Assembly (NCBI RefSeq): GCF_007752345.1
Contig: NZ_CP036299.1
Location: forward strand, 372,001 to 436,000
Reading direction: 5' to 3'
DNA length: 64,000 nt
From: Planctopirus ephydatiae
Lineage (GTDB): Bacteria; Planctomycetota; Planctomycetia; Planctomycetales; Planctomycetaceae
The notes below the pieces were generated by a model. It saw only the letters and a program-made list of their open reading frames with translations, did no database searches and was not told the DNA's origin. A program made the position numbers and the translations under genes. Positions 55,380-59,187 of the stretch are shown here, one piece after another. The stretch's first letter is position 1; each line of letters opens with the position of its first letter.

Positions 55380-56530
55380 GACAACGCTCCAGCAGGTAAA
55401 CGGCAATCTTTTGCCGGTGGGGGATGCGAACGGGAAAAAACGAGGCGAGGAACTTCACTGAATCCATGCGGCTGGAGACATTCATCTGGTCTCTGCTCTG
55501 CGACCTGAGCGGCTGAGAATTCTCAGTCACTGAGAGTCGCACGACTGTCTGAAGTTCAAATCGGCCAGATCACTGAGGTTCTGGCATTGTGCTGGATTGC
55601 TCATTAGCAATTGAGTCACTGAGATTCGAAAACCAGGCAGAGGTGACAGAATCAGAAGGTATTTGGAAGATCGCCTGTTGTTCAGCCAGTCACTGGCTGC
55701 CAGAGAAGCGTCAAACAGTAAACCTTCTGTTCAACCTAAAGAACGCCGTCCGCGAGATAGCTCACTGCAGCGACCGTTTGTTTACCCCCGCCGGCTGCGG
55801 GCAGCGGTATCATCGCTTGAGGAGGGGTGTTCGACTCAAAAGGCACAAAGAACCATCCAGCCGAAGTGCATGAGTGCAGGCGGAAAGCCGAGTGCGTTTG
55901 CTGATACCAGTGGCCAGCGTCATTACCTGATCGACCAAAGCCAGCGAGCGAATGGCCGAATCATGGCGAATCGCTGAGGCCCGGCGGCGGTAGACCACAC
56001 TGAGACGCCCGGAAAACATGCGGGCGTTCATCGCCGAGAGCCAACGACGCAGACCGCCAATACCCAAACCCGACTCCGCAAAGCTCAGCGGAGCTGGCAA
56101 AACTGCCGGGGTATGGATGGCCATGGTCTGTGGCATACTCGGTTTGACCCTAAGTTGAGTGTTTCGACTGCGGGATAATACGAACACAAACCGCCTTGGC
56201 CAAGATAAACCCGGACAAAATTCACCAAGTTGGCGAAAATTCGTCCGGCAGAATCGGCCAGAAGCCCTCCCGGAGGAGTCATTCTCGCCGATCCAATCAC
56301 TTGGCCCACAGGAAAACGCATTTTTTCCGAGAAAGATCAATCGCACTGACTAGGAATTTGGTGTCCCGTACCATTCGCCGAATTCTCATCACGAGATTTC
56401 GACCGCCAGACGACGGGAAAACAAGTCGATTTTCAAAAAAATACAGTGGCCAGTACACGCCTGGCCACTGCGAAATCGATTTGTCTTCTGGAATTCGTCC
56501 CAACTTTCGCCACAAATGGCTGCATGGAGA
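55380..56530. other. long intergenic region with no confident gene
   Basis: This 1.15 kb stretch separates the decarboxylase from the thioredoxin-protease gene. Apart from the uncertain minus-strand frame at 55810-56136, no gene is supported. I looked for a structured RNA and saw no recognisable RNase P, tmRNA or 6S core. Confidence 0.4.
55810..56136 (-). CDS. possible small basic protein (unrecognised)
   Basis: A minus-strand frame of 108 codons from ATG 56136 lies in an otherwise empty 1.15 kb gap; the same frame is open further upstream to 56346. The sequence is Arg/Ser/Ala-rich (LSAMNARMFSGRLSVVYRRR, LALVDQVMTLATGIS) and I recognise no family. The start has only a weak purine stretch. 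Codon usage looks compatible with a gene, but this is not decisive. It may be a real small protein or chance. Confidence 0.3.
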   Translation of the reverse strand: MPQTMAIHTPAVLPAPLSFAESGLGIGGLRRWLSAMNARMFSGRLSVVYRRRASAIRHDSAIRSLALVDQVMTLATGISKRTRLSACTHALRLDGSLCLLSRTPLLKR

Positions 56531-58819
56531 CTATTTCCGTTCTGTCAGAGGCACAAGTTCTTCTCTGCGTGGCAAAACCTGTCGCTTGAAGGCGGTCGAA
56601 TTGCTCGAAACCCACGGTCTTGGCCCGAGAGCTTCACGAGCAGGCTCTCTGGCAGGTTCAACGGCGGCCACTGACTTTTCAGACACCGACGAAGCTGTCT
56701 GCCGCTGGTTGTCGTCCACTCGGAGTGAAACCGGCAGACGCTGCGACTGAGAGTCAACCTCTCCCATCAGATAGGTCATGAACGTCTGGCTGGCACGATT
56801 CAGAACCACAATCCGACTGTTATCTCCCGCACCACCGCGTGGACGCACAATGCAGATGATTTCCGCATCGGGCGATTGATTCATCAGTGCGGCCTCAGCA
56901 GCGGCATTCGTGCCACTGTTGATACTACTCGTGGCACTTGAAACTGAGCGATTGTTACCGCCCGCAGCCATCAGGCTGTCGCCCATGGCTTCAGACGAAC
57001 TTCCTGCATCAGCCGTGCGGGCGGCACTGGCGACAGCCGTATTCGCTCGGCCTCTACCTTCTCGTCGAACAAGAGCACCCAGCCGATGCTTTTCGAGCAT
57101 CGTACCGATGGGCTCCAATCCGGCGTAGAGACCCCGCCGCTCTTTGGTGTCGGCAGCAATGCACACACCAGCCAGTTGACCATCGGCTCGGAACAGCCCG
57201 CCACCGGAGCGACCCTGAATCGGCACTCCTGTGCATTCAATGTTTTCCGGCCCGTTGTAACGGTTGATGGCTGTCACCTTGTGACTTTCGCGTGAAGGAT
57301 TGGCGCCTCCACCGCAGCCAATGCTGAACATCTCTTCGCCCGGGCCAAGTCTCACATCCACAGGGGATAGCCGGGCGACTGAAACGGCCTTTTCAGTGGG
57401 AATCATGATCAGACCAACATCCGCATCGAGATTGAAATCCATCACTTCGCCGAGGTAGGTCCGAGGACTTCCTTGAGCCTGGAAGACATCCACTTCGACA
57501 ACAGGCTTGGATTTCAGATCACGGAAAATATGGCCGCAAGTGACGATCATCGTGCGGCCAGCCTGGCTGTCGACAATGGTTCCCGATCCATAGTTCGACA
57601 TTCCACCCTGGCTGTCGCGAACTCGAATACGCACACTGGCCAAAGCGGGATCGACATGAGCCACTGTCATTTCGGCATCGTCTTCAGCATTGTTCCCGCG
57701 AAAGAGTTCGTTGGCGGGAGCTGCCGGTGGCTTAGGTTCTGCAGGAATAGAAGAATTGGCCGATCGGGTCAGTCCCATCCCTTCGCTGATTGAATTGAGA
57801 ATTCCAGTGCGGGGAGCGGCGGGGGCATTGCGAGGGTTGGAAACAATCTCTGCTTCCAGACGCGATGATTCACCCAAAATTGTGGTCGGTACGCCGTCGG
57901 CATCGAATGGTGAAGCATTGGTCTTTGGCAATGGTTTTGAACCGGGGACTGCCAGTCGCTCCTGCTGACCACGTGCGAGTTGTGAACCCTGCACTGCCTG
58001 CTCGGCCATCCGTCGCAATTGAGCTTCGTTCGTCATGCCGACAATGCGATTCACTTCTTTGCCGTCGATCACGAGGATAAATGTGGGCATCGAATCAACT
58101 CGAAACTGACGGGCAAGATTGGGTTCCTGATCCACATCCACTTTGCGGATCGCGTAACCTTGCCTTTGCAGTTTCGAGACAATCGGACTCATCTGCTGGC
58201 AGGGCCCGCACCAGGAAGCGGTAAAGTCGAGTACGACGGAGTTGGCCGGTGTCCCTGCAGCTTTCAAAGTCTGATTCGAACCCGCCAGGCCAGCCGGCCA
58301 TGTCGTCGGGCAGACAATGGCAACCACCGCTGCCACTAGCAAGGTCATCGTGAGAGCCATGGCACTCACGAGACCGGCTGTGCGGGAAAGTTTGCCATGA
58401 ACGAATAATCGAGAACAGCGGATTGTCGCTGGAAGCTCAGGCTCAATAGCAGAAGCAACCGGTACTTCCGGAGTTGTCGCCTCGGCTTTTGCATCAGCTT
58501 CCGCAGTGATTGAGCGATGGGACAGGGCGATCTGCAACGCATGGGCCTGTGTCTTCGCAGGCAGAGCCACGTGATCATGAGATCGAGAATGCAGGGATAA
58601 CTTATTGGAAGATTCAACGGCTGAGTGGGAAACTCTCGATGCTTCCTGAGTCAGCTTTGTCTCAGGGAGAGAGCTCACTTCCGCAGGCCGACGGGAGCTA
58701 TCGGCAACAGGCACCGGTTGATCAGCCGGTGGGATTTCTCCGTACCAGCCAGGAACCTGTCCTGCAAACGACTCGGTCGTGGGCGAAACATGGCGTGCAA
58801 TGGTCGAATCTCGATCCAT
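56531..58819 (-). CDS. membrane-anchored thioredoxin-trypsin-like protease fusion
   Basis: 762 residues from ATG 58819, preceded by a perfect AAGGAGG. The first 145 residues are hydrophilic and cytosolic. One helix (about 147-170) is followed by a thioredoxin domain with WCGPC at 203-207 and the cis-Pro motif SMPTF (243-247); a disulfide role in the periplasm follows from topology. After a Pro-rich linker comes a trypsin-like domain: His430 (VTCGHIF), Asp467 (LDADVGLI) and Ser538 (GRSGGGLF) form a plausible triad. The last 170 residues are Ser/Ala-rich with no clear domain. A single protein joining thioredoxin and serine protease is unusual. The domain order is seen; its use in envelope protein quality control is inferred. 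Confidence 0.88.
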   Translation of the reverse strand: MDRDSTIARHVSPTTESFAGQVPGWYGEIPPADQPVPVADSSRRPAEVSSLPETKLTQEASRVSHSAVESSNKLSLHSRSHDHVALPAKTQAHALQIALSHRSITAEADAKAEATTPEVPVASAIEPELPATIRCSRLFVHGKLSRTAGLVSAMALTMTLLVAAVVAIVCPTTWPAGLAGSNQTLKAAGTPANSVVLDFTASWCGPCQQMSPIVSKLQRQGYAIRKVDVDQEPNLARQFRVDSMPTFILVIDGKEVNRIVGMTNEAQLRRMAEQAVQGSQLARGQQERLAVPGSKPLPKTNASPFDADGVPTTILGESSRLEAEIVSNPRNAPAAPRTGILNSISEGMGLTRSANSSIPAEPKPPAAPANELFRGNNAEDDAEMTVAHVDPALASVRIRVRDSQGGMSNYGSGTIVDSQAGRTMIVTCGHIFRDLKSKPVVEVDVFQAQGSPRTYLGEVMDFNLDADVGLIMIPTEKAVSVARLSPVDVRLGPGEEMFSIGCGGGANPSRESHKVTAINRYNGPENIECTGVPIQGRSGGGLFRADGQLAGVCIAADTKERRGLYAGLEPIGTMLEKHRLGALVRREGRGRANTAVASAARTADAGSSSEAMGDSLMAAGGNNRSVSSATSSINSGTNAAAEAALMNQSPDAEIICIVRPRGGAGDNSRIVVLNRASQTFMTYLMGEVDSQSQRLPVSLRVDDNQRQTASSVSEKSVAAVEPAREPAREALGPRPWVSSNSTAFKRQVLPRREELVPLTERK

Positions 58820-58834: not shown

Positions 58835-59187
58835 CTTGTTCGACTTGTAAATCTTTCCAGCGCGATTGGTAAAATTTGTTAGAGAATTTACCAATCACAT
58901 CTGGCCCGAAGAGTTCGTCATCCATGACTGGCAACTTCGGCGAAGCATGCGGAAGTTATCCTCCGCAACAATTTAGCTCAAGACAAACTTCTGCAGACAC
59001 CTTTTCCGAGGAGCATGTACTGAACATTCAACTCATCGAAGCGACGGCAGAATCTGCCGAAGAACCATAACAGCAGCTCGCGTGCCAGTTGCTTCGATTG
59101 CCTTGTTCATTCGCTTTTTCTGAGAAACACAGTCACGCTAGTCGGTCATCGCTTTTGTGTGGTGAGCTTCGTTTGCAAAGGTTTTCC
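58835..59187. promoter_or_regulatory. divergent promoter region, thioredoxin-protease / pepT
   Basis: This 353 bp stretch separates two divergent genes. A plus-strand frame ending at 59070 has no ribosome binding site and no similarity. No promoter could be assigned with confidence. Confidence 0.3.

Follow-up and report, generated by a model that had tools for sequence, protein, structure and literature searches.

A Planctomycetia family of HtrA-type serine proteases with a fused thioredoxin domain and an active-site cysteine pair as its candidate target

The window analysed here is a 64,000-nt stretch of the Planctopirus ephydatiae genome (NZ_CP036299.1, positions 372,001 to 436,000). A gene on its minus strand, at 56531..58819, encodes a 762-aa protein (ATG at 58819, zero internal stops in the translation); all features of the gene described below lie on this strand and are given in window coordinates. 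Reading from the N-terminus, one hydrophobic segment is followed by a thioredoxin domain with a WCGPC motif; a linker then leads to a serine protease domain of HtrA-like type, with His430, Asp467, and Ser538 as its triad, and a small domain closes the C-terminal end. A first-pass annotation had described this interval as a thioredoxin domain fused to a trypsin-like protease, and both Pfam domains indeed score above their curated cut-offs in the single frame. A chance open reading frame is ruled out by the Pfam domain E-values and by residue conservation across 98 members of the family.

The start of the protein is its least certain part, since residues 1-143 are variable and the frame can be extended upstream as far as a TTG at 58894. 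The N-terminal tail (residues 1-146; 58382..58819), probably cytoplasmic, was compared codon by codon with three same-genus orthologues. Against L030, 94 of the 143 positions of residues 1-143 are gapped, the length varying with every change in frame; against L011 and L029 the region is mostly alignable, with replacement and silent codon changes at about the same level over residues 74-143. Of the 55 members aligned, 52 have a gap at position 135. The sole hydrophobic segment follows (residues 147-170 or slightly beyond, by hydropathy; 58310..58381), a putative signal anchor that agrees with the single anchor helix of the first-pass annotation: C-terminal of it, the maximum 19-residue mean is no higher than 0.98. 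Many of the N-termini of 55 members have, by eye, a hydrophobic stretch directly ahead of the thioredoxin domain. Roughly 60 bases 3′ of the stop codon is a terminator-like hairpin (11 pairs, then a T run; 56443..56471); such hairpins are no more numerous in the region than in shuffled sequence (2 found, vs. a shuffle mean of 2.9).

The thioredoxin domain (residues 192-272; 58004..58246) matches PF00085 with an E-value of 6.2e-20 and a score of 71.6 bits, vs. a curated cut-off of 23.5, and its blocks in the AF2 model have pLDDT values of 94-97. Together with a CxxC motif and a cis-proline, this places it in the thioredoxin superfamily; its score with the thioredoxin equivalog model TIGR01068, 80.2 bits, is under that model's curated cut-off of 96.8. 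The WCGPC motif is exactly where it had been reported (residues 203-207; 58199..58213), and P245 (58085..58087) occupies the cis-Pro position. C204, C207, and P245 are each found in 98 of 98 members; the flanking and inner residues of the motif vary (WCGPC in 71/98, WCVYC in 7/98, others in the rest). CGPC with an aspartate at the place of residue 198 is typical of reducing thioredoxins, and 62 of the 77 CGPC members have it. The linker (residues 276-387; 57659..57994) is modeled mostly at low confidence (AF2 pLDDT mostly below 50 from residue 286), and its length across the 98 members has a median of 82 residues and a range of 21-146. At the other end of the protein is a mini-domain (approximately residues 639-692; 56744..56905), predicted by AF2 to have an alpha-beta-beta-alpha order, which is found in 103 of 117 fused ORFs vs. 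0 of 25 scored thioredoxin-less ORFs. None of its 109 Foldseek matches reached E 0.001, but as its model is of moderate confidence (pLDDT 73.5) it may still have a known fold.

The protease domain (Trypsin_2, PF13365; residues 411-552; 57164..57589) has an E-value of 1.4e-16, above the curated cut-off in score. The AF2 model of residues 176-700 has an overall pLDDT of 74.7, with means of at least 90 in the thioredoxin blocks and most of the protease blocks, and its protease part is closest to HtrA structures (DegS, 2rce: Z 24.9, rmsd 2.5 over 183 residues). The chymotrypsin-type triad of the first-pass annotation is correct at every position: His430 (57530..57532; 96/98 members), Asp467 (57419..57421; 98/98), and Ser538 (57206..57208; 96/98). 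The domain thus shares with HtrA/Deg proteases (DegP, DegQ, DegS, HtrA1) a chymotrypsin-fold catalytic domain and the His-Asp-Ser order, the fold coming from a predicted model and the triad from sequence. As a single sequence the protease part found no match in the PDB; a profile of it matched 115 distinct PDB sequences, DegQ among them at E 6.7e-15, and all of the 60 listed are HtrA/Deg or MarP-type proteases.

The window protein differs from HtrA/Deg proteases in its fused thioredoxin domain, its cysteine pair, its different C-terminal mini-domain, and the lack of a PDZ match (PDZ is absent from the 13 families in a Pfam scan at E up to 1). The usual HtrA signature is TNxH plus GNSGG. The window protein has TCGH and GRSGG, whereas 7 of the 8 own-genome paralogue ORFs listed carry TNxH and GNSGG, the eighth (L008) having TNYH and GSSGG. 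The arginine of GRSGG (R537; 57209-57211), directly ahead of the catalytic serine, is invariant in the fused proteins (98/98) and in the scored thioredoxin-less ones (24/24); at this place the own-genome paralogues listed have Asn (7/8) or Ser (1/8).

Four cysteines of the protease region are conserved to different degrees. C428 (57536..57538), two residues ahead of the catalytic histidine, and C502 (57314..57316), in an IG-x segment, are each present in 96 of 98 members and are candidate partners of each other. C529 (57233..57235) is present in 74 of 98, and C553 (57161..57163) in 96 of 98 fused members and 23 of 24 scored thioredoxin-less relatives. An obligatory C529-C553 pair was considered and rejected: C529 is gone in 24 of 98 members, while C553 stays in 96 and is also kept in nearly all of the thioredoxin-less proteins. 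Two members, L146 and L151, have Val at the C553 place and Cys at residue 542, a possible swap of one cysteine position.

In all, 104 distinct fused proteins were gathered, including the window protein and one truncated member (L068, 267 aa) that was left out of the alignments and of the intact-triad count; residue counts are for the 98 members that remain when 102 rows are collapsed at >95% identity. Besides the window's own, there are 36 genomes of the same genus or family, and 33 of them give a match with an E-value of at most 1.4e-39. The three without one are G008, G012, and G017, of which G012 is 96% complete. In two further families of the class (f3, six genomes; f4, three genomes) no match has an E-value below 7.6e-17, and among the matches listed the thioredoxin part alone is covered. 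A scan of contigs from the best 80 of 174 relatives, added to earlier loci, gave 108 loci, some of them the same contig twice. At 62 of these a single ORF carries both domains, and at none of the 108 did blastp, at E 1e-3, find an ORF that has the protease part but no thioredoxin domain; the first alignment comprised 55 distinct proteins.

The first-pass annotation had suggested a search for the phyletic range of this architecture. In a sample of Planctomycetota, the profile matched 49 of 294 genomes at a threshold of E 1e-30. The window's family accounts for 32 of these (its own genome included), and the other 17 are of its class. Genomes with a match include those named Schlesneria (Planctomycetaceae), Planctomicrobium, and Singulisphaera (Isosphaeraceae); of the 245 non-matching genomes, 20 are listed, 3 belonging to family f3 of the class and 17 lying in the phylum but outside the class. 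At the same threshold there were matches in 0 of 145 genomes of the phylum of an Akkermansiaceae locus and 0 of 200 of the phylum of a Neptuniibacter locus; with no known positive in either phylum, these empty results carry little weight of their own, although the profile itself did match in Planctomycetota. The fusion is frequent in the class Planctomycetia and not a one-off, and the family that it defines is both real and conserved: HtrA-type proteases in a variant form that carries a thioredoxin domain and a cysteine pair. Literature searches of open-licence PMC papers listed no description of a fused thioredoxin-HtrA architecture. A conserved operon partner was looked for and rejected, the commonest other protein cluster occurring at just 8 of 39 loci (with flanks of up to 6 kb per side, many ended by contig ends). 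A TolQ/ExbB-like gene, so named by eye, lies within about 5 kb at 5 of the 39.

Relatives lacking the thioredoxin domain came to light in the Singulisphaera genome, where the profile also gave protease-only matches. Three stand-alone proteins (L173, from this genome, L176, and L177) have the GRSGGGLF...GVC motif and all three triad residues; at 428, however, they carry Ala, and at 502 either Ile or Val. A profile of these three matched 31 of 218 genomes of the class: 28 in family f2, plus G032, G041, and G597 (E 9.9e-21 to 2.9e-22). The loci that this search gave for G032 and G597, and one of G041 from a separate search, encode fused members. Family f2 is probably Isosphaeraceae, since the match position in one of its genomes (G552) is nearly that of the Singulisphaera genome. 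As a group, the thioredoxin-less proteins resemble the fused ones in the triad and in a GRSGGGLF/LY...G(V/L)C signature (L203 has Ala for the Cys), and differ in having no thioredoxin domain, no C428/C502, and no match to the C-terminal mini-domain.

The new result is that the presence of C428 and C502 tracks the thioredoxin domain together with an intact triad. A cut at 60 bits gave 129 protease domains, 104 fused to thioredoxin and 25 not; the 12 hits below it that were left out are four thioredoxin-less relatives (L201, L202, L204, and L205) and eight HtrA-type ORFs. Both cysteines are present in all 101 fused members with an intact triad (of 103 besides the truncated L068), and neither occurs without the other in any of the scored sequences. 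The exceptions fall into three groups. Two fused proteins of one genus (L025 and L145, genus g29) have lost the catalytic His (to Ser or Ala) and Ser (to Cys) along with both cysteines, while keeping CxxC. In the 24 scored thioredoxin-less relatives that have His, Asp, and Ser, position 428 is always Ala, and position 502 is Ile in 16, Val in 5, and Phe in 3; the four under 60 bits agree with them (TAAH and VGI). The remaining protein, L172, has no thioredoxin domain and lacks the catalytic His and both cysteines.

Among the intact fused rows (102 rows, the window protein having been entered twice, as QUERY and L009), 26 columns reach 90% conservation or more, and of these just 428 and 502 are missing from each of the three exceptional groups. 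In two of the groups His430 goes with them, and in the thioredoxin-less clade it is kept; F432 and Y565 differ in that clade alone, so that the split between fused and thioredoxin-less proteins is by itself weak evidence. A FastTree phylogeny with columns 428 and 502 masked, rooted on five own-genome HtrAs, groups the 24 thioredoxin-less proteins as a single clade (0.98) whose sister is the clade of fused proteins (0.919); pairs L025 with L145 (0.979); and places L172 within the fused clade, beside eight fused members including that of Singulisphaera (1.0). On this tree, both cysteines changed jointly three separate times, two of these independent changes involving no more than two proteins each. 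Fused and thioredoxin-less proteins give the largest contrast, but it amounts to a single split and could be due to something else that distinguishes the subfamilies.

The two fused exceptions have the thioredoxin motifs NCGPC and NCIHC, and may be pseudoproteases with a kept redox function. L172 is a 720-aa ORF (L172:1279-3441, plus strand) in which an ECF sigma factor (Sigma70 regions 2 and 4) is joined to a protease domain of the family type without its catalytic His; the arrangement suggests a sensor in the envelope that is coupled to transcription.

In other relatives the same two positions are filled differently: of the five own-genome HtrA paralogues, four have Asn at both and one has Asn and Ser, and the five PDB alignments shown (DegQ, DegP, HtrA1) have Asn/Asn or Asn/Ala. 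Asn/Asn, Ala with a large residue, and Cys/Cys might be read as three packing solutions for one contact, which presumably parallels Ala55/Trp141 of trypsin.

Several known systems link thiol chemistry to proteases of this fold, all of them in trans or without a thioredoxin. In available excerpts of PMC3446894, the activity of plant Deg1 and Deg2 is redox-dependent, Deg1 being maximally active when reduced and Deg2 the opposite, and Deg1 and Deg5 are thioredoxin targets that form mixed disulfides with TrxA. There, unlike here, the thioredoxin is a separate protein. The same excerpts report that PsbO is stable when oxidised and becomes a substrate of Synechocystis HhoA on reduction by thioredoxin (PMC3446894); thioredoxin reduction thus gates proteolysis by a Deg protease, but the two are separate proteins, it is the substrate that is reduced, and HhoA is described as cysteine-free.

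Mycobacterial MarP (Rv3671c) is a membrane-anchored chymotrypsin-fold protease with a disulfide linked to its activity, although excerpts of PMC4992679 give conflicting directions, the bond being reduced on activation or stabilising the active site. Its fold is close to that of the window protein (3k6y: Z 23.4, rmsd 1.9, 177 residues). MarP has four N-terminal transmembrane helices and the excerpts mention no thioredoxin (PMC4992679), as against one hydrophobic segment, rather than several helices, in the window protein, which scores 18.7 bits with the NCBIfam MarP model (cut-off 250) and so falls outside that family. The MarP disulfide is 214-397 in MAP0403 (PMC4992679, in excerpt). A GOS survey of marine trypsin-like selenoproteins found a conserved Cys replaced by Sec, for which a possible redox function was proposed (PMC2398784); the excerpts mention no thioredoxin fusion of that family.

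As to the redox context, a single DsbD_TM match (L169) was obtained in the window's own genome; the protein concerned is 960 aa long and also contains DsbD_N and a thioredoxin-like domain. The genome gave no matches to the VKOR, Thioredoxin_4, DSBA, or DsbB models, which matched 3, 9, 8, and 6 of 14 control genomes respectively. The envelope of this organism may therefore be without the common disulfide oxidases, other oxidases being possible.

The distribution of C428 and C502 points to redox control acting on the protease itself, since the pair is found together with the thioredoxin domain and a complete triad; in the fused family the pair behaves, to judge from its pattern of loss, like a target of its own thioredoxin. 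C428 and C502 would form a disulfide at the active site, and the flexible linker would bring the thioredoxin dithiol to them, with a DsbD-type transporter as electron source; as the bond formed or broke, the active site would be opened or shut according to the redox state of the envelope. That the window protein is a membrane-anchored envelope protease of HtrA fold, its activity set in cis by its own thioredoxin through a C428-C502 disulfide, is given slightly better than an even chance. The wider proposal, of a planctomycete-wide protease whose fused thioredoxin makes or breaks a disulfide straddling the catalytic His and the oxyanion side, so that envelope redox gates proteolysis within one chain, seems evenly balanced between right and wrong. 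The pair is apparently not needed for catalysis as such, since the thioredoxin-less relatives keep the triad without it. There is a slight lean towards the oxidised form being the locked and active one, because positions 428 and 502 look like a packing pair in active relatives; the plant Deg precedents for the active state go both ways (PMC3446894, in excerpt). C529, C553, and C656 complicate the cysteine pairing.

The first-pass annotation had proposed a coupling of disulfide reduction to proteolysis of oxidised envelope proteins. Some coupling of thiol chemistry with proteolysis is supported, but its placement on the substrate fares less well. The thioredoxin domain would then reduce disulfides of damaged envelope proteins and the tethered protease would cut the unfolded product, much as PsbO is cut by HhoA once reduced by thioredoxin, a precedent in trans (PMC3446894, in excerpt). 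With DsbD in the genome and no match to the four oxidase-family models, a disulfide in an envelope protein may in itself signal damage, and a flexible linker, as modeled, would suit the hand-over. Such coupling calls for no cysteines in the protease, as the cysteine-free HhoA illustrates (PMC3446894, in excerpt), and taken alone it leaves unexplained why cysteines near the catalytic site are limited to thioredoxin-fused proteins with an intact triad; it is possible, but rather improbable as the full account. The joint occurrence of pair and thioredoxin could also come about if the latter were a built-in folding helper, installing or isomerising a C428-C502 bond that is purely structural and not a switch. 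C529 and C553 could mispair, and the four oxidase-family models had no match in the genome; against this, the CGPC motif and its aspartate are mostly of the reducing type, and the triad is kept in relatives without the bond, making this reading unlikely. The variable linker might even suggest two independent enzymes sharing an anchor for localisation alone, which is very unlikely given that fusion is seen in every one of the 101 proteins that have both the pair and an intact triad, and that the cysteines change jointly.

Gating of HtrA-type proteases is usually attributed to PDZ-bound peptides, oligomer state, or temperature. If control of the protease by its own thioredoxin is borne out, a thiol gate of this kind would unite in one polypeptide the redox control that plants exert through separate thioredoxins, and would also be informative about envelope redox in planctomycetes, given the DsbD and oxidase matches above.

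Two further observations concern other arrangements of these domains. A 1373-aa lipoprotein-like ORF (L208:1928-6049, plus strand) has a similar thioredoxin domain followed by what appear, by eye, to be HEAT-type repeats, and there are thioredoxin matches in frames of similar length in two other genomes. At G000:C1:3323144-3326648, three Trypsin_2 matches follow one another on the same strand, the frames being 637, 395, and 767 aa long.
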